From the IMG/VR virus record IMGVR_UViG_3300040781_000269, positions 1-30,644 of that record: a stretch of 30,644 nucleotides of DNA; one strand, 5' to 3'. The position numbers were made by a program, and so were the translations under genes. Position 1 is the first letter of the stretch. Each line of letters begins with the position of its first letter. The notes under the pieces were generated by a model. It did not search any database. It saw only the letters and a program-made list of their open reading frames with translations, and had not been told where the DNA came from. This document shows, piece after piece, positions 2,393-22,512 of this stretch. This stretch comes from a virus.

Positions 2393-3529
2393 ATGCCAAA
2401 ATATATTTCAAAGCAATATACAGAAAAAGAGAAACAAAATATATTACAAAAATATAATATGGGTTTAATACCAAAGGCTAATATACCATTGGATATATTT
2501 AAAAATAATATTCAAGAGTTAATTGATTTTGGTATATATTGGGAAGATTGGAATGATGATAATGATTATAGAAGTCTTTTCAAAAAATTAGAACAAATGA
2601 GTGTTATTGATAAAATAGAAATTATAAAAGGTGAGAAATTTCTAAATTGGGGTAATGTATCATTTGTTCTTTTAGCAAATGTTTTCTTTAAACATATGTG
2701 GGAAGCAAGATCACATGATAAACCATCTTTATATGATATATGGCATGATCCTATAAAAATGCAAAAATTGCTTGATAAGTTTTTGAGAGATAAAAAAATT
2801 TTTAGATCGCATGAGAAAACTATGAAATTTTTTCGTAAATTTTTGAGATCTTTATCAGGTGGTTATTTTACATATAATTATAAACCGGATATTGCAAAAA
2901 TAATTTATGAATTATATGGTAGACGTGGCAAGGTTTTTGATTTTTCAATGGGGTGGGGTGCGAGACTTGTTGGTTTTTTAGCTTCTAGTTGTAAAGAATA
3001 TGTTGGTGTTGATGTTAATCATAAAAATTTTAAATCTTACGATATGATTGTTAAAGCATATTCTAAGAAAGGATTTCGTAAGAAAAAATTTGATTTTATC
3101 GAATGTCCTGCTGAAGATTTTAGACCAAAAAAATATAAGGAATATTTTGATCTATGTTTTTCATCACCACCTTATTTTATAAAAGAAATATATTCAAGTG
3201 ATGAAAATCAACATCATCTAAAACATGGTGATGATTATAATGATTGGATTGATGGTTTTTTGTTACCTATGATTCAAAATCAGTGGTATTTACTCAAAAA
3301 AGGTGGACGTTTGGTTATAAACATTGCTGATGTTACTATTAAGGGTAAGATATACCCATTAGAGAAAGATACGCTCTCCATTGCAAAACAGACAGGATTT
3401 AAGATAGATGAGATATTAAATCAAAAACTAAATAAATCACCTTTTATGCGTAATAAAGATGTAAACGAAAGAACTCAAGATAAGTTTGGTTTTAAATTTG
3501 AAAGAATTTATGTTTTTATAAAGGAGTAA
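2393..3529 (+). CDS. Amino-methyltransferase-like protein (SPPY motif)
   Basis: The 378-residue protein has a Rossmann methyltransferase core in its second half. Motif I is DFSMGWGARLVG (from residue 183), followed by an acidic motif II (YVGVDVNHKNF). The catalytic motif IV is SSPPY (residues 257-261), a variant of the D/N/S-PP-Y/F motif of N6-adenine and N4-cytosine methyltransferases. The KKGGRLVINIADV strand follows. The motif order I then IV is that of beta/gamma-type orders. The N-terminal ~170 residues are helical, basic and aromatic, and could recognise the target. No restriction endonuclease lies beside it, so it may protect phage DNA from host restriction. An RNA or small-molecule substrate cannot be excluded. 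Its start is 18 bases after the clamp loader stop. Confidence 0.75.
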   Translation: MPKYISKQYTEKEKQNILQKYNMGLIPKANIPLDIFKNNIQELIDFGIYWEDWNDDNDYRSLFKKLEQMSVIDKIEIIKGEKFLNWGNVSFVLLANVFFKHMWEARSHDKPSLYDIWHDPIKMQKLLDKFLRDKKIFRSHEKTMKFFRKFLRSLSGGYFTYNYKPDIAKIIYELYGRRGKVFDFSMGWGARLVGFLASSCKEYVGVDVNHKNFKSYDMIVKAYSKKGFRKKKFDFIECPAEDFRPKKYKEYFDLCFSSPPYFIKEIYSSDENQHHLKHGDDYNDWIDGFLLPMIQNQWYLLKKGGRLVINIADVTIKGKIYPLEKDTLSIAKQTGFKIDEILNQKLNKSPFMRNKDVNERTQDKFGFKFERIYVFIKE

Positions 3530-3532
3530 ATT

Positions 3533-3790
3533 ATGGGGTTTAAAGAAGCTAAATTAGAGATAGAAGCAAGATTTAATATAAACATTGATAACTTTAAGAC
3601 TTCTTTAAAGGGGAGTAAAGTTAAAAAATCTGATATATCAAAATTTAAACCATCTGATCTGTGTGAAGGTATGCAGATTGAATTTGAGCATACTACTGAT
3701 GCAATGGTTGCTCTCGAAATTGCATTGGCTCATTTAAATGAAAGAAAAGACTATTATTATAAATTAAAAAAATATGTTGAGAAAGACTAA
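3533..3790 (+). CDS. DUF5661-like small protein
   Basis: An 85-residue protein. Its C-terminal half, GMQIEFEHTTDAMVALEIAL followed by AHLNERKDYYYKLKK, matches the pattern I know as DUF5661: (E/D)xEHT(D/S)D, then IAxxHLxExxxYYxxLxxxE. This domain of unknown biochemical function is widespread in phages and in archaeal/bacterial mobile DNA. The gene has an AAAGGAG site and shares one base with the next gene (TAATG at 3788-3792), so translation is probably coupled. Confidence 0.7.
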   Translation: MGFKEAKLEIEARFNINIDNFKTSLKGSKVKKSDISKFKPSDLCEGMQIEFEHTTDAMVALEIALAHLNERKDYYYKLKKYVEKD

Positions 3791-4488
3791 TGCATTATTT
3801 TGGGTTAGAAAATCGAAAATTAAGAAAAGTTACAATTAATAGAGTTTATGATTTCATTCATAATAATGGTGATCGGTTAATTAAAGATAAAAATTTAATT
3901 TTTGATAAAATATCATTAGCAAATGGTATAAGTTTAAATTGTTATTTATGTCCTAAAAAATATGGATGTTGTAATGGTTCTCCATTTAAAGTTACCGATG
4001 ATTATAAAAATATGATTAAGATAATTTTAAAGGATTTAGATTATAAAGATATTAAAACGAATATAAAACAAATATTTAATAAGTCTAATATTATAAAAGA
4101 ATTAAAAGATAATGAAAACAAAAATCATTGTATTATGATGCAAGATATAAACTCAAGTATGAAAGGGTGTGTATTACAAAAATATGCAGTTGATCATGGT
4201 GATCATCCTTTAAAATATAAACCAATATCTTGTGCTTTATTTCCGTTAGATATTATAGTTTTAGATGATCATAGATATTTTATTTTTAGTAAAACTATAG
4301 ATGATAATGATCCTATTAATAAACTATCAAGATTTTGGGAAAGTGTTAAATATATGCCTTGTATGAGTGGTACAAAAGATGGTTTTATTTTACAAAAACC
4401 AATATACATTGAATTTGAAAAAGAGATAAGATTTTATTTAGGGGATAACTCATATGAAAGAATTTATAGATTTTTTCAACAATCTTGA
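3790..4488 (+). CDS. Cysteine-cluster protein resembling DUF3109/YkgJ-type metal-binding proteins
   Basis: The 232-residue protein has a Cys cluster CYLCPKKYGCC (Cys51, 54, 60, 61) and further cysteines at 114, 127, 148 and 191. The segment around Cys127-Cys148 (GCVLQKYAVDHG, then YKPISCALFPLDI) resembles the DUF3109 pattern in which a cysteine is followed by an 'xKPxSCxLFPxR' element. Such proteins probably bind zinc or an Fe-S cluster. The family's reaction is not established. It overlaps the first GNAT-like gene by 35 bases and sits at the head of a cassette with two GNATs and a PLP enzyme, which suggests a shared pathway. Confidence in the family is moderate and rests on cysteine spacing. 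Confidence 0.55.
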   Translation: MHYFGLENRKLRKVTINRVYDFIHNNGDRLIKDKNLIFDKISLANGISLNCYLCPKKYGCCNGSPFKVTDDYKNMIKIILKDLDYKDIKTNIKQIFNKSNIIKELKDNENKNHCIMMQDINSSMKGCVLQKYAVDHGDHPLKYKPISCALFPLDIIVLDDHRYFIFSKTIDDNDPINKLSRFWESVKYMPCMSGTKDGFILQKPIYIEFEKEIRFYLGDNSYERIYRFFQQS

Positions 4489-5509
4489 TATAAAAAAACC
4501 ATCAATTGATAAGCATTTAGAGATTCAAAAGTATTTTGATAAATATTTTGAGTCACATGATTATTCAACCTCACGTATGAGTTTTTTAGATTTATATTGT
4601 CAGGAAAAATATTTTTATACAATAGTTGATGATACTTTTTTATATTTTAATTTATCAATATATAAGAGAAAAAAAGGTGGGTCTATAACTCTATCTTCTG
4701 CACCAATTAATAAAAATGGTGATATCAATAAAGAAAAAGATATAATAGATTACTTATCAAATCATGGTGTTAATATAATTATATCTGAAGAAGATATGGA
4801 AAGGTATAATTATAGTGATTGGAAATATTTATCAACTTTTGATGATTATATTGCTAGTTCTGAAAAGCTTATTGAACTCAAAGGTAAAGATTTTAAAAAA
4901 CTTAGATGGCGTAAGAATCAATATGAGAAGCAATTAAATATTAATCTAATGGAAAATTTGTTTATAACAAATCCTTCCAATAATACAATTAGTAAATCAT
5001 TAGATCTTCTTGATCATTGGTTAAATAGATGGAAAAATAATAATAATCGTATTTGGGAAGACCCATCAGCATATATTAAGCGATATCATAAAGACATCAA
5101 TAATTTAGATTTGTTTCAATATCTATCGATACATGATGTTCAAAGTGAACAACAACTTGTATATGAATTAACAGAAAAAATATCAAATGATCATATTTTA
5201 TCAACAACTGGTTATAGACATTATGATTATAATTTATTACCCGAAGCTAATGAGATGATTTTGCTTAGAGGTATTGATAATTGGTATAATAAAATAGGGA
5301 ATCATTTTTTAATAAATTTAGGTTATTGTGGTTTTAATGGGAAGCTTAAAAAACAAAAAATGAAATATAAACCAATTAAAGTACTTAAACATTATAAGAA
5401 AGAATCAGATACATCATTAATAATGAAAAATTTTGATAAATTTAAATTATTAAAGGATTTAAAACTCAAGATAACAAATCCACGCTTAAAATCTACTTGG
5501 AGAAAATAA
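4454..5509 (+). CDS. GNAT-fold acyl/aminoacyltransferase-like protein (DUF2156-like), copy 1
   Basis: The 351-residue protein starts within the preceding gene; AGGGG at 4440-4444 supports the ATG. A middle segment, DDYIASSEKLIELKGKDF followed by KKLRWRKN, matches the 'DYxYxxxxLxxLxGKxxxxxRxxxN' pattern of DUF2156, the C-terminal domain family of phosphatidylglycerol lysyltransferases. The C-terminal NLGYCGFNGKLKKQKMKY plus P matches that family's 'NxxxDxGxxGLxxxKxxYxP' ending. These are tandem GNAT folds; characterised relatives transfer an amino acid from aminoacyl-tRNA to a lipid. The acceptor here is unknown. The next gene is a paralog with the same landmarks. There is no membrane segment, so it should be cytosolic. 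Confidence 0.55.
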   Translation: MKEFIDFFNNLDIKKPSIDKHLEIQKYFDKYFESHDYSTSRMSFLDLYCQEKYFYTIVDDTFLYFNLSIYKRKKGGSITLSSAPINKNGDINKEKDIIDYLSNHGVNIIISEEDMERYNYSDWKYLSTFDDYIASSEKLIELKGKDFKKLRWRKNQYEKQLNINLMENLFITNPSNNTISKSLDLLDHWLNRWKNNNNRIWEDPSAYIKRYHKDINNLDLFQYLSIHDVQSEQQLVYELTEKISNDHILSTTGYRHYDYNLLPEANEMILLRGIDNWYNKIGNHFLINLGYCGFNGKLKKQKMKYKPIKVLKHYKKESDTSLIMKNFDKFKLLKDLKLKITNPRLKSTWRK

Positions 5510-6465
5510 TGTCATTTTTAAATGAACTAAAATTTAAACATATAGAGTTTGATGATTTAGAAAAATATTCACAATATTATAATAATCTAAATAATCGTTT
5601 CTATAAATCGTTTATGTATTTAACACAATCAAAAAAATTTATATATACTTTTTATAAAAAAGCTCTTTTGATTTTTAAAAGAGGGCATATAATGAATAAT
5701 AAATATGTTTATCTTTTAGTACCACCAATTACAAAAAATAATGATAGAAAACTTGAGTTAGAAATTATAAATGATTTAGCATTAATTGGTGTGAAAACTA
5801 AATTAACAATAGATGATGTAATTATTTATGGTTTAGATATTGACAATCTCATGATTGATAAAGGAAATGATGAGTTTATATATTCTGCTAAAAAGATATG
5901 TTTAATGAAAGGCAAAAAATGGGGTCGAGTTAGAACATATATCAATAAAAATAATCAACTTGTGGAAAATGGTCAATTAAGAGTTGAGACTACACGTAGA
6001 GTTGATCCTTTAACCATGCGTAGATTAATAAAAATTACAGATTATTGGATAAAGCATCATAAAAATATGAAAGGAATTAAATATTATCTAAATAATCTAA
6101 ATAATTTTAAACCAGCATATATCACATACGTAGAAAATTCAAATAATGATATTTTAGCATATATGATTGTTGAAAATTATGGTAATGAGTTAATTTTAAC
6201 GATGCCAGTAAAGAATTATAAAATTAACTGGAAATATGATATTAATGCTTTTGTTATGAATAAAGTTGCTGAGTATTGGTTAAATTATTATATATTTACT
6301 TATGATAAATTAGATGTTCAAATGAATATTGGTGCTAGCGTTAATGATAAAGGACTACATAAAAATAAAAATAAATATGAACCAATAATTATACAACAGA
6401 TTTATAATAATAAAGTTGACACAACATTAATTAATGATATATATTTAGATATAAATATCTTATAG
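5509..6465 (+). CDS. GNAT-fold acyl/aminoacyltransferase-like protein (DUF2156-like), copy 2
   Basis: The 318-residue protein is placed at ATG 5509, which overlaps the previous stop (TAATG) and has GGAG at 5499-5502. A TTG at 5497 is in frame but lies at the ribosome binding site. It is a paralog of copy 1: EFIYSAKKICLMKGKKWG followed by RVRTYINKN corresponds to the 'IASSEKLIELKGKDFKKLRWRKN' stretch, and MNIGASVNDKGLHKNKNKYE plus P corresponds to copy 1's C-terminal signature. The middle (TDYWIKHHK, then ITYVENSNNDILAYMIVENY) looks like the GNAT beta strands. The pair diverged long ago, because identity outside the landmarks is low. The two could form a heterodimer or act on different acceptors. 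Confidence 0.55.
   Translation: MSFLNELKFKHIEFDDLEKYSQYYNNLNNRFYKSFMYLTQSKKFIYTFYKKALLIFKRGHIMNNKYVYLLVPPITKNNDRKLELEIINDLALIGVKTKLTIDDVIIYGLDIDNLMIDKGNDEFIYSAKKICLMKGKKWGRVRTYINKNNQLVENGQLRVETTRRVDPLTMRRLIKITDYWIKHHKNMKGIKYYLNNLNNFKPAYITYVENSNNDILAYMIVENYGNELILTMPVKNYKINWKYDINAFVMNKVAEYWLNYYIFTYDKLDVQMNIGASVNDKGLHKNKNKYEPIIIQQIYNNKVDTTLINDIYLDINIL
6450..6457 (+). promoter_or_regulatory. Candidate T4-type late promoter (TATAAATA)
   Basis: An exact TATAAATA octamer lies inside the end of the second GNAT gene, 39 bases before the ATG of the zinc-ribbon gene at 6497. T4 late promoters consist of this octamer about 6-7 bases before the start point and need no -35 element. The 20 bases after it are AT-rich. 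In DNA this AT-rich the octamer is expected by chance about ten times per strand, so its position is the only support. Confidence 0.4.
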
Positions 6466-6496
6466 ATATTTTGATATTTTGTTGTTAGGAGAATTT

Positions 6497-6697
6497 ATGC
6501 GTAAATATAAAATGAAAAAAATTGGATTTGATTGCCCTTTTTGTCATATGGAAAATTTTGATTTCTTGAGCTCAAAGAATAATCTTTTAATTAAGAATGA
6601 ACTAAAAGATGGTTACATATGTAAGGGTTGTGGTATAAGAATACCGGAAACACTTATCATAAGTTTTATTGATGATTATAATTATAAATTTGTATGA
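6497..6697 (+). CDS. Small zinc-ribbon protein
   Basis: The 66-residue protein is placed at ATG 6497 because AGGAGAA lies at 6487-6493. Upstream in-frame TTG codons sit at or before that site. The sequence carries CPFC (Cys13, Cys16) and CKGC (Cys42, Cys45), a four-cysteine zinc-ribbon arrangement, followed by a short hydrophobic tail. The cysteine positions are the same as in the 55-residue protein at 1215-1382. Its stop overlaps the next start (ATGA). The function is unknown. Its place in the GNAT/PLP cassette may be meaningful or may reflect gene packing only. Confidence 0.6.
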   Translation: MRKYKMKKIGFDCPFCHMENFDFLSSKNNLLIKNELKDGYICKGCGIRIPETLIISFIDDYNYKFV

Positions 6698-6987
6698 GCC
6701 ATAATATAAAATTAAATATGATGGAAGTCATTTTTGATGAGTTTCATAAAAATTTAGAATCGAGAGTTAAGAATATCATACAAAATATATTATCTGAGGA
6801 AGATTATAAAATATATGATGAATTATTAGTTAAAAATAATTTAGATAACATTCATGATTTTCTAATAAAAAAAGTTGGTTTAATAAGTTTTGCTGTCAGT
6901 GAGATGATTATTGAAAAAAATTCTTTAGAGGTTGAAATAATATTTGATATTTTTATCAATGATACAAAGATTGAGGACATTAACTAA
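6694..6987 (+). CDS. Small protein of unknown function
   Basis: A 97-residue protein with starts and stops overlapping both neighbours (ATGA at 6694-6697, TAATG at 6985-6989), so it is likely to be translationally coupled. The predicted make-up is mostly helical in the first two thirds (EVIFDEFHKNLESRVKNIIQ), followed by an LEVEIIFDIFIND beta-like end. It has no cysteines and no recognisable motif. I do not recognise a family. Confidence 0.6.
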   Translation: MSHNIKLNMMEVIFDEFHKNLESRVKNIIQNILSEEDYKIYDELLVKNNLDNIHDFLIKKVGLISFAVSEMIIEKNSLEVEIIFDIFINDTKIEDIN

Positions 6988-7856
6988 TGGAAAATAAAAT
7001 ATATGAACCAATTGAAATAACACCAGTAGAATTTAGGAATGGTATTTATTTTAAAAGAGATGATTTATTTAAAATAGGTAAATCATGTGGTGGTAAAGTT
7101 CGCTCTTGTTGGTATCTAGCACAAAAAACTAAGGGTTTAGTTACTGCTGGTAGTAGATCATCACCACAAGTTAATATTGTTGCGGAGATTGCTAATAGAT
7201 TAAATATACCTGCTATTGTTTTTACACCAGAGGGTGAATTAATGCCAGAGGTTAAATTAGCAGTTGTTCATGGTGCAACTGTTTATCAAGTTGAAGCTGG
7301 TTATAATTTAGTTATAATTAATCGATCAAGAATAGCCGCTCGTAAATATGGTTATAAAGAAATACCTTTTGGTATGGAAACTATTGAAGCTATTAATCAA
7401 ACTCGTAAACAACTTAAACATATTCCAAATCAAATAAAAAGAATTGTTATGCCTGTTGGATCAGGTATGTCTTTGGCTGGAGTGTTATGGGGTCTAATTG
7501 ATCTTAAAATTAATATTCCAGTTATTGGTATAGTAGTTGGTGCAGATCCAAAAGAAAGATTAGATAAATATGCACCTCGTAATTGGAGAAAAAGAGTACA
7601 ATTAATTAAATCAGACTCACCATATCATGAATATTATAAAAAAGAAGAATTTACATATTTTAATGATATTTTGTTAGATCCAATTTATGAAGCTAAATGT
7701 ATACCATATATTCAGAAAGGTGATTTATTTTGGATTGTTGGTCAAAGAGCTTCTATGGGTATACCAACTGATTATATAAATGAAAGATTTAATGAGGTTA
7801 GGGATAAAAGAGTATTTAGGTTAAGTAAAAAGGATCGTAAAAAGAGAAATTGGTAA
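6987..7856 (+). CDS. Fold-type II PLP-dependent enzyme (ACC deaminase/D-cysteine desulfhydrase/threonine synthase-like)
   Basis: The 289-residue protein has the landmarks of beta-family PLP enzymes. YFKRDDLF (residues 21-28) and CGGKVRS (34-40) match the 'KREDL...GGNKxRKLE' segment in which the lysine binds PLP; here that is Lys37. GSGMSLAG (158-165) is the phosphate-binding glycine loop. Substrate-side motifs TAGSRSSPQVN and GATVYQVEAGY also fit. Relatives deaminate, desulfhydrate or add to the beta carbon of amino acids; the exact reaction cannot be read here. It is somewhat shorter than cellular relatives (about 320-340) and has a lysine/arginine-rich tail. It shares a base with the previous gene and may supply an amino acid or amine to the neighbouring GNAT-like enzymes; this is inference. 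Confidence 0.8.
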   Translation: MENKIYEPIEITPVEFRNGIYFKRDDLFKIGKSCGGKVRSCWYLAQKTKGLVTAGSRSSPQVNIVAEIANRLNIPAIVFTPEGELMPEVKLAVVHGATVYQVEAGYNLVIINRSRIAARKYGYKEIPFGMETIEAINQTRKQLKHIPNQIKRIVMPVGSGMSLAGVLWGLIDLKINIPVIGIVVGADPKERLDKYAPRNWRKRVQLIKSDSPYHEYYKKEEFTYFNDILLDPIYEAKCIPYIQKGDLFWIVGQRASMGIPTDYINERFNEVRDKRVFRLSKKDRKKRNW

Positions 7857-7887: not shown

Positions 7888-8274
7888 ATGTATAATAAAC
7901 CATTAATTTATGCGGTAGTCGGGTCAAGATCTTTTAAAGATTATCGTTATTTGGAAGCAATATTAGATAAAATATTTAGTACTAAGAATGTTTTAAAAAT
8001 AATAAGTGGTGGTGCTATAGGAGCTGATACATTAGCAATGCGATATGCTAATGAACATAAAATTAATTTTGTTGAATATAAAGCTGATTGGGTTAAATAT
8101 GATAAATCAGCAGGATTAGTTAGGAATATGCAAATGGCAAATATATGTGATGTTGTTATTGCTTTTTGGGATGGTAAATCAACAGGTACAGCACATATGA
8201 TCGATATATGTAAATCTCAAAATAAAAAAGTAATAATTAAAAAAATTGATAAACGTAAAAAGAGGACTTGGTAA
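7888..8274 (+). CDS. SLOG/DUF2493-family protein (YspA-like)
   Basis: The 128-residue protein has the family signature throughout: VVGSRSF near the N-terminus, SGGAIGADTLAMRYANEH in the middle, FVEYKADWVKYDKSAGLVRN, and VVIAFWDGKSTGTAHMI. This Rossmann-like SLOG fold binds nucleotide-derived ligands. Phage members are common and their role is not established. The start has a strong AAGGAG (7874-7879). The last codon overlaps the ATG of the gp47-like gene, so the two are translationally coupled, which points to a nucleotide or DNA-metabolism role. The basic tail (KKIDKRKKRTW) resembles the tail of the preceding PLP enzyme (KKDRKKRNW). Confidence 0.85.
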   Translation: MYNKPLIYAVVGSRSFKDYRYLEAILDKIFSTKNVLKIISGGAIGADTLAMRYANEHKINFVEYKADWVKYDKSAGLVRNMQMANICDVVIAFWDGKSTGTAHMIDICKSQNKKVIIKKIDKRKKRTW

Positions 8275-9311
8275 TGAAAACATTATTAATGACAGATTTA
8301 CATCATAATGACGATACTTTTCTAACACATTATGCGATTAAATATTTAAATAATATGATTGATATAATAGAAACTCAAAAAATTAAAAGAGTTATTATAT
8401 TGGGTGATTGGAGTGATAAAAGATCTTATATGCATTATAAATCTTTAGCAATATTCACACCATTATATTATAAAATGATGGAATTGGTGGATCACTTTTA
8501 TTTTATTATGGGAAATCATGACTCAACATATCACAATGTTAATGATATATTCTCAGCTAAAGAAATATTTGAGTATGCTAGCAATCAGATCAAATGTGAT
8601 GTTAGATTCATTCAAGATGATGTTTTGGTATTAGATGATGAAAAAATTGTTTTATGTCCATGGATACCAAAAGAAAATAATGAAAAAATAATATCAGATA
8701 TAATGAAATATAATAAAAGTGATTATATTTTACTGGGTCATTTTGAATTGAGCGGATTTCAGACTAATGATAAATATATTATGACATCAAGTCAGCTTAA
8801 AAGATCTACTTATAATAAATATGATAAAGTAATATCAGGTCATTATCATTTAAATCAAACAAAGCGTAATGTTGTATACTTGGGATCACCATATCAAACA
8901 AAATTTGGTGAGGGTACAAATCATGAAACCTTTATTTTAAATAATAAAAGAGAACTAAAATCAGTATATATGCATGATGATATTTTTATTGAATTATATA
9001 TTAAGGAATTTGATAATGATAATTGGCTTGATGTAATTGATAATATTGATAATAAGAAAGTTAAAATATCAATAGATAGTGATGATAATGATGTTATAAA
9101 TAAAATTATAAACTATGTAAATGTGAATTATAAACCAATTGACGTTAAATATTTCTTCAGAAATAAAGAATTTGCTTTTGAAGAAATAGAAGTTGAAAAT
9201 AAATCAAATGAAGAAAATGAAATAGATTTTTTTAATACTTTGATTTTAGATGATGATATCGAGGAAGAGGTTAAAAAGAGATTTTATGTTTTCAAAAACG
9301 ATAGAAGCTAA
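8274..9311 (+). CDS. 47: Recombination nuclease subunit (T4 gp47/SbcD/Mre11-like)
   Basis: The 345-residue calcineurin-type metallophosphoesterase contains all nuclease motifs: DLHH (Asp8, His10), GDWSD (Gly44-Asp48), GNHD (Gly80-Asp83), GHF (155-157) and SGHYH (ending His192). These bind two metal ions in Mre11/SbcD enzymes. T4 gp47 works with the gp46 ATPase to resect DNA ends for recombination-dependent replication. ATG 8274 is chosen because it overlaps the previous stop and has AGAGGA at 8261-8266. A TTG six bases upstream is in frame but less likely. The C-terminal third is acidic. The gp46 partner is not in this window. Confidence 0.9.
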   Translation: MKTLLMTDLHHNDDTFLTHYAIKYLNNMIDIIETQKIKRVIILGDWSDKRSYMHYKSLAIFTPLYYKMMELVDHFYFIMGNHDSTYHNVNDIFSAKEIFEYASNQIKCDVRFIQDDVLVLDDEKIVLCPWIPKENNEKIISDIMKYNKSDYILLGHFELSGFQTNDKYIMTSSQLKRSTYNKYDKVISGHYHLNQTKRNVVYLGSPYQTKFGEGTNHETFILNNKRELKSVYMHDDIFIELYIKEFDNDNWLDVIDNIDNKKVKISIDSDDNDVINKIINYVNVNYKPIDVKYFFRNKEFAFEEIEVENKSNEENEIDFFNTLILDDDIEEEVKKRFYVFKNDRS

Positions 9312-9741
9312 ATCAAATGATTTTTTATTATTATCAAATTTTATTGAAATTAAATTTATCAATGAAAATGGTTATAGATTAGTTAGGGAAACAATTGCTA
9401 GAATATGCACACTAAAAGATGATGTATATATACAGGAATGTTACTTATATCATAGACGCAATAAATATTATATTGTACATTGGTCAGAAATGTATGCATT
9501 AGATCATTCTGACTATAGTAATATAAATGAGAGAAATTTAAGACTGCGTAATAAAATAGCTCAAATATTAGTTAAATATGATCTAATCAAAATCATAAAT
9601 AATGATGATCTAAAAGAGTGGGTTTATTTAGATCAATCTGGTAAGGAAAATACAATTTTTATTACGGATGAGTATATAAAATTTAAAGTACTCACATATC
9701 AAGAAAGTCGTAATAATAATATTAAAATAATGGAATGGTAA
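9286..9741 (+). CDS. regA: RegA-like translational repressor
   Basis: The 151-residue protein aligns along most of its length with T4 RegA (122). YIQECYLYHRRNKYYIVHWS followed by EMYALD corresponds to RegA's LYQSCHILQKKGLYYIVHFK/EML region, and RNKIAQILVKYDLIKII to RRDSIAWLLEDWGLIEIV. RegA binds AU-rich sequence at start codons of early mRNAs, including its own, and blocks translation. ATG 9286 is preferred, with AAAGAG at 9275-9280. An in-frame ATG at 9250 would add 12 basic residues. The gene overlaps the end of gp47 by 26 bases. In T4 regA lies between 43 and 62; here it follows 47 and precedes baseplate genes. Confidence 0.75.
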   Translation: MFSKTIEAKSNDFLLLSNFIEIKFINENGYRLVRETIARICTLKDDVYIQECYLYHRRNKYYIVHWSEMYALDHSDYSNINERNLRLRNKIAQILVKYDLIKIINNDDLKEWVYLDQSGKENTIFITDEYIKFKVLTYQESRNNNIKIMEW

Positions 9742-22032: not shown

Positions 22033-22512
22033 ATGGCTAAAAAAGGATTTTACAACATACAAAATATTTCAAAATATGATGGGGCTTCTTTTAAATTGAG
22101 ATTCCTATCATCATGGGAATTAAATTATATGGTTTTTTGTGATTACAATCCTGATGTTATAAAATGGTCTTATGAAAGAAAAATGGTTAGATATTACGAT
22201 CCCATTACAAAAAAAGTGCGTAGGTATAAAATTGATTTTTATGTTAAACATAAAAAAAAGGATGGTGGGGTTTTTAAAATGTTAGTTGAAATAAAACCTA
22301 AAAAACAAATGTTCCCTCCTAATAAACAAAAAAGATTTAATAGCCCAAAGGGTTTTATGAAGGATCTTTTAGTATATAATTTAAATAAAGCTAAATGGTT
22401 ATCAGCGAACACATATGCTATAAATAACGGCATGTATTTTTATTTAGTTGATTATAGTGATAATAGATTTTATTATTATACATTGAAAGAGGTTGGTATA
22501 ATTGAAAAATAG
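22033..22512 (+). CDS. 4: Head completion protein (T4 gp4-like)
   Basis: A 159-residue protein that resembles T4 gp4 (150). FLSSWELNYMVFCDYNPDVI matches gp4's SSWELKFCQWCDRNP segment, RRYKIDFYVKHK matches HRYFPDFWIKV, and LVEIKPKKQMFPPNKQKR matches IVEIKPYAQTKPPR. The spacing of W, D and E-x-K residues resembles PD-(D/E)xK nuclease folds, and gp4 relatives are described as nuclease-like head completion factors that act when DNA is packaged and the tail joins. The full-length family alignment supports this ATG even though no ribosome binding site is visible. The next gene overlaps by 11 bases. Confidence 0.82.
   Translation: MAKKGFYNIQNISKYDGASFKLRFLSSWELNYMVFCDYNPDVIKWSYERKMVRYYDPITKKVRRYKIDFYVKHKKKDGGVFKMLVEIKPKKQMFPPNKQKRFNSPKGFMKDLLVYNLNKAKWLSANTYAINNGMYFYLVDYSDNRFYYYTLKEVGIIEK

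Follow-up and report, generated by a model that had tools for sequence, protein, structure and literature searches.

A candidate base-hypermodification pair of a methyltransferase-like protein and a PLP enzyme in a divergent T4-like phage

Described hypermodification systems and the locus

To our knowledge, phage DNA hypermodifications mostly begin from hydroxymethylated pyrimidines. Acetyltransferases are also present in thymidine pathways of the M6, SN1, and ViI type, and the thymidine hypermodification pathways of these three phages are reportedly described by Lee et al. (NAR 2022). A gene for a pyridoxal 5'-phosphate (PLP) enzyme belongs to the M6-like thymidine cassette (PMC9476957). We analyzed the IMG/VR virus record IMGVR_UViG_3300040781_000269 (positions 1 to 30,644, called the window here), a 30.6-kb phage fragment. 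The portal, head protease, major capsid, clamp loader, RNase H, and DNA polymerase genes in the window are all of the T4-like type, and its source is a divergent T4-like phage. Judged from sequence, there is about an even chance that a DNA methyltransferase (MTase)-like protein and a fold-type II PLP enzyme of this phage form the core pair of a DNA base-hypermodification system:

2393-3529, + strand: DNA-MTase-like protein of the SPPYF family, 378 aa (phrog_12517, E 6.6e-14; PADLOC MTase_II, E 1.8e-12)
6987-7856, + strand: fold-type II PLP enzyme, 289 aa (PF00291, E 4.9e-12; phrog_3650, E 3.6e-27)

The locus resembles the M6, SN1, and ViI systems in that a related phage PLP family acts there beside DNA-base-modifying enzymes. 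It differs from the M6 and ViI systems in that the amino acid:DNA transferase ADDT (aGPT-PPlase), the 5-hydroxymethyldeoxyuridine (5-hmdU) kinase, the hydroxymethylase, and the radical S-adenosylmethionine (SAM) enzyme (rSAM) were not found among the proteins scanned in the window, itself a fragment, and the PLP clade represented here is instead associated with a SAM-dependent MTase-like enzyme. The original prediction, which treated six genes at 3790-7856 as one cassette, overlooked the MTase-like gene just outside that range, which we judge to be the functional neighbor that matters.

The PLP clade and its methyltransferase partners

The assignment of the PLP enzyme to fold type II, already made in the original prediction from the sequence, is borne out by the PF00291 match and supported by an NCBIfam match, the best being to the TIGR01275 subfamily (41.6 bits, cut-off 289.4). 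Lys37 of the GGKxR motif is invariant in a 13-sequence alignment and is the predicted PLP-binding lysine. In the PDB, the folds nearest to the PLP part of an MTase-fused relative (L016) are those of D-cysteine desulfhydrase and 1-aminocyclopropane-1-carboxylate (ACC) deaminase, and O-phosphoserine sulfhydrylase and CysM are also among the nearest. The window enzyme differs from D-cysteine desulfhydrase and ACC deaminase in scoring far below the TIGR01275 cut-off, and the SPQ and LDPIYEAKC stretches, conserved in the phage PLP clade, set this clade apart.

A profile scan of IMG/VR with the PLP enzyme yielded 80 loci, which split in the tree into two fully supported clades. The window enzyme is nested in the MTase-linked clade (39 tree rows, support 100/100), where it groups with L030 (97/85), an independent pair of a PLP enzyme and an SPPYF MTase. 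Linkage to a DNA-MTase-like open reading frame (ORF) is observed directly in 35 of the 39 rows, by fusion in 21 and by adjacency in 14, the window counted. In a count by hidden Markov models (HMMs), 44 of 54 PLP loci scoring above 80 bits are fused to an MTase or lie less than 4 kb from one, compared with 2 of 32 loci below 80 bits; the seeds of the MTase and PLP HMMs were drawn partly from the loci later counted, the counts depend on the loci chosen, and many contigs are short, which makes absence within a contig weak evidence. Around members of the sister PLP clade lie, among others, ADDT, a P-loop nucleotide kinase, the 5-hmdU kinase, Tet_JBP, and thymidylate synthase. Among deposited phages, PLP relatives lie beside or inside DNA-MTase-like proteins in Pam4, AlanGrant, and Alsa_1, and in phage Montesquieu a relative lies in a thymidine-hypermodification cluster. 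AlanGrant gene 2 (L005:1406-2272), from a Mycobacterium phage and annotated as a nucleoside deaminase, aligns with fold-type II PLP enzymes.

The fusions have a defined form. A motif scan found 17 ORFs in which the PLP domain interrupts the MTase after motif I and before motif IV, and in the AlphaFold2 model of the L016 protein the PLP part stands between helix B and strand 3 of the MTase, mostly with a predicted local distance difference test (pLDDT) score above 90. With PLP relatives fused to DNA-MTase-like proteins or placed within hypermodification clusters, a DNA base is the likeliest of the acceptors that had been proposed (DNA base, lipid, or cell-wall peptide). When 84,980 species genomes of bacteria and archaea were searched by pattern scan, clear relatives of the MTase-linked clade turned up just twice (at 41% and 45% identity), along with two weak ones, so the clade is essentially one of phages. 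A second PLP subfamily, with the motif GGTKxR, is fused into the same MTase in Erythrobacter phage ZS04 and adjacent to the MTase in Mae-JY30. L193:1985-4420 and L200:3611-4318 are loci of this second subfamily; the ZS04 product is annotated as a DNA methyltransferase, and the product name in Mae-JY30 (DNA modification methylase) appears wrong.

The window MTase has no Pfam match. Its motif I is DFSMGWGAR at residue 183, with Arg at position D+8, and its motif IV is SSPPYF. The Arg at D+8 is found in 112 of 114 SPPYF family members, as in the MTases with the motif GGSVRG. The HMM built on the C-part of the PLP-linked CPPY MTases also recognizes the protein (E 7e-6), whose gene lies 3,461 bases upstream of the PLP gene, within the 4-kb linkage limit. 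SPPYF MTases are found near a PLP gene in L004, L030, L104, L124, and L136, the last two being related; in L104 the PLP gene, of the second subfamily, follows the ParB-SPPYF MTase by 2 nt. CPPY ParB-MTase proteins (PF01555 plus ParB_N), such as gp77 of Listeria phage B054 and gp36 of Enterococcus phage phiFL3A, belong to the same broad family as the PLP-linked CPPY MTases, and neither of these two is accompanied by a PLP or SpeD partner. The window MTase, a member of the related SPPYF branch, has neither the CPPY motif IV nor the ParB domain of the ParB-MTase family proper.

SpeD-linked sister methyltransferases and the predicted chemistry

In MTases of this family that have no PLP partner, a different gene can take its place. 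A SAM decarboxylase (SpeD) gene overlaps the MTase gene in Croceibacter phage P2559S and Pseudomonas phage ZRG1. To the loci already collected we added a further 80 from IMG/VR, selected for their similarity to the ZRG1 MTase, and the proportions are not natural frequencies. Motif I reads GD..FG in place of GGSVRG in 49 MTases, all of which have SpeD within 16 nt, mostly overlapping, and none of which has a PLP partner. The 75 GGSVRG-like MTases comprise 36 with PLP type 1, 6 with PLP type 2, and 33 with neither, and none is accompanied by SpeD; the altered GD..FG motif is absent from all 42 PLP-linked GG-type MTases. This correlation between partner and SAM motif is an observation. In a quick tree with many open forks, the two PLP types are scattered over the GG part, with 15 and 5 changes, a pattern indicative of multiple gains or losses. 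The SpeD partners retain ESH...HT and the conserved Cys, and the Ser, His, and Cys of SpeD are reported to be necessary for processing and catalysis (PMC10407285). They belong to the same family, PF02675, as the described phage SpeD/AdoMet decarboxylases (PMC9992855, PMC10407285), and the window itself has no SpeD. The overlapping or abutting MTase-like and SAM decarboxylase genes at L197:2024-3662, L198:2024-3866, and 47 IMG/VR loci are the most testable extension of the finding.

The tie between a changed SAM pocket and a SAM decarboxylase suggests transfer of the aminopropyl side of SAM. By extension, the Arg-containing class may use SAM itself, in which case the PLP enzyme would receive an amino acid already attached to the base. 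In the first step of such a pathway, the MTase-like enzyme would attach to a DNA base the 3-amino-3-carboxypropyl arm of SAM and not the methyl group; the SPPY/CPPY type of motif IV makes an exocyclic amine the probable site. The PLP enzyme would then act on the base-bound amino acid, most likely by decarboxylation, to give a 3-aminopropyl base, and the sister phages would reach the same product with decarboxylated SAM made beforehand by SpeD. In a third, speculative step, two proteins of the LPG_synthase_C type encoded between the MTase and PLP genes could pass an amino acid from an aminoacyl-tRNA to the exposed amine. The resulting bulky base would protect the DNA of the phage against nucleases of the host. 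The decarboxylation, its aminopropyl product, and the aminoacylation are predicted, and the complete scheme, with two alternative routes to the aminopropyl base (SpeD before transfer, PLP after it) and aminoacylation by the paired proteins in this phage, is tentative and, as a whole, less likely than not. If true, a second hypermodification chemistry would exist, in which MTase-fold enzymes with PLP or SpeD partners draw on the other arm of SAM, and a family of phage "methyltransferases" would gain a function; the predictions are testable in Croceibacter phage P2559S, Pseudomonas phage ZRG1, Erythrobacter phage ZS04, and Pseudanabaena phage Pam4. Literature searches on the PLP-MTase theme found nothing, and text searches of PMC9992855 and PMC10407285, which concern polyamine synthesis, showed no mention of DNA modification, of ParB-MTases, or of a pairing of SpeD with MTases, which is no proof of novelty.

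Several points weigh against the pair and its predicted chemistry. The spacing of about 3.4 kb between the window MTase and PLP genes is a weak point, and their pairing could be coincidental. Because the SpeD MTases form nearly one clade (35 of 38 tree rows), the correlation between motif and partner may reflect a single evolutionary event, and phage SpeD homologs can instead decarboxylate ornithine or arginine (PMC10407285). Decarboxylation by the PLP enzyme is an extrapolation, and fold-type II PLP enzymes also carry out elimination and replacement. Further, SPPYF MTases are common in T4-like phages in which no PLP gene was detected, and neither partner lies within 2.5 kb of 33 of the 75 GGSVRG MTases, some of which may simply methylate. 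These last two points, and the match of the window MTase to models of type II DNA MTases, favor ordinary N4 or N6 DNA methylation, with the PLP enzyme assisting in regulation or metabolism (for example in SAM supply or by-product removal) and no hypermodified base being made. We consider this unlikely, as the insertion of PLP domains inside the MTase and the gain or loss of both PLP subfamilies at scattered points suggest that the two enzymes act on the same substrate, and the SAM motif varies with the SpeD partner.

Plant beta-substituted alanine synthases carry out replacements with uracil or purines. A comparable beta-replacement, in which the PLP enzyme itself attaches the amino acid by transferring the alanyl group from serine or O-acetylserine to a base bound in the MTase domain, would agree with the placement of a fold-type II PLP enzyme inside a DNA-MTase-like protein and with the presence of O-phosphoserine sulfhydrylase and CysM among the nearest folds. 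It leaves the replacement of PLP by SpeD in the sister MTases and the accompanying change of the SAM motif unexplained, and we regard it as doubtful, somewhat more so than plain methylation. The original prediction also had the PLP enzyme form a free amino donor, which is less likely than action on a base-bound amino-acid arm. An independent, donor-making PLP enzyme was set aside, since the clade is tied to MTases.

The paired GNATs and the remaining genes

Between the core genes, and directly after them, the window encodes the following:

3533-3790, + strand: DUF5661 protein, 85 aa (PF18905, E 1e-9, above cut-off)
3790-4488, + strand: Cys-cluster protein, weakly DUF3109-like, 232 aa (PF11307, E 2.4e-4, below cut-off)
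4454-5509, + strand: LPG_synthase_C/DUF2156-type protein 1 (GNAT 1), 351 aa (PF09924, E 2.9e-8, above cut-off)
5509-6465, + strand: LPG_synthase_C/DUF2156-type protein 2 (GNAT 2), about 318 aa (PF09924, E 8e-9, above cut-off)
6497-6697, + strand: zinc-ribbon protein, about 66 aa (two CxxC pairs; no family above cut-off)
6694-6987, + strand: 97-aa protein (no family above cut-off)
7888-8274, + strand: SLOG (YspA-like) protein, a neighbor outside the proposed system (PF10686, E 5.8e-15)

The resemblance of the two GNATs to LPG_synthase_C, noted in the original prediction, is confirmed by PF09924, which both match above the curated cut-off of 27.5 bits (33.6 and 35.4 bits for GNATs 1 and 2), a likeness that they share with MprF. 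The two are paralogs (25% identity; BLASTP E 5e-12), and the profile of their alignment matches PDB 2hqy (E 0.0022), a Bacteroides DUF2156 protein with which they share YIY..L..LKGKK...R..INR and a C-terminal LG...GL.KAK..Y.P. The GNAT fold of the pair is predicted from these sequence profiles, and the AlphaFold2 models of the two proteins have a pLDDT of 41. It is possible that the pair are aminoacyl transferases. They differ from the lysyl-phosphatidylglycerol synthase MprF in having PF09924 only, with no membrane flippase domain, and in missing a stretch of about 35 residues present in the aligned MprF-type sequences, which argues weakly against a lipid acceptor. An hhalign comparison of phage and cellular GNATs was based on small alignments and had no power. 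In two Bacteroidota genomes (L191:3394-5353 and L192:3508-5444), a second GNAT-like gene comes after a 2hqy-type DUF2156 gene.

Single-sequence scans of IMG/VR with GNAT 1, the PLP enzyme, the Cys-cluster protein, and the DNA polymerase found no relatives. The GNAT alignment matched only the L091 contig in IMG/VR and nothing in bacterial genomes. On this phage contig one protein matches PF09924 below the cut-off (hmmscan E 4e-5), and SPPYF MTases lie at 1.4 and 5.5 kb. L091:11099-15645 also holds ribonucleotide-reductase-like ORFs, which appear by eye to be split by several intein-like stretches. PF09924 was undetected in 98 records bearing PLP or MTase relatives, in a search of imperfect sensitivity that missed the weak L091 member, and general acetyltransferases (PF00583) were found in 1 of 40 PLP-clade records, about 11 kb from the PLP gene. 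Co-conservation of the GNATs with the PLP and MTase relatives is thus not seen, which counts against the proposed scheme, and the two are assigned to it by their position. The Cys-cluster protein has the pattern CxxC..GCC...C...C..FP and scores 21.4 bits with DUF3109, below the cut-off of 33.5. No relatives of it were found in the phages or IMG/VR data searched, and DUF3109 was undetected in 27 viral records tested; the protein is possibly an accessory of the system.

These searches do not support the six genes as a conserved unit, and the co-occurrence expected of such a unit is largely absent for the GNAT and Cys-cluster parts. The coordinates and + strand given for all six genes are correct, and the head-to-tail overlap or abutment is real. 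It is no evidence of a cassette: the main genes of the window are all on the + strand and tightly packed across the whole 30.6 kb, the packing is therefore uninformative about a functional unit, and the overlap was dropped as proof of one. A unit independent of the MTase, in which the PLP enzyme makes a free donor and the GNATs, partnered by the Cys-cluster protein, attach it to lipid, cell wall, or DNA, is favored by gene order, by the PF09924 matches of both GNATs, and by the Bacteroidota 2hqy-type homologues that also adjoin a second GNAT gene, and is highly improbable given the genome-wide packing, the failure to detect PF09924 and DUF3109 in the records above, and the MTases, not GNATs, that accompany close PLP relatives. 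What stands of the original prediction is the GNAT and PLP families and the DNA base as the likeliest acceptor, and not the conserved set or the free-donor role of the PLP enzyme.

Two gene starts were reassigned. GNAT 2 most likely starts at ATG 5509, which has GGAG upstream and overlaps GNAT 1 in TAATG, rather than at TTG 5497, and the zinc-ribbon protein most likely starts at ATG 6497, after AGGAG, rather than at TTG 6479. No tRNAs were found in the window, promoter-like matches were no more frequent than in shuffled sequences, and no terminator-like site was found. Elsewhere in the window, a T4 RegA-like translational regulator is encoded at 9250-9741 (PF01818, E 8.8e-14) and a protein with a TnsA-like endonuclease domain at 22033-22512 (PF08722, E 1.7e-12).

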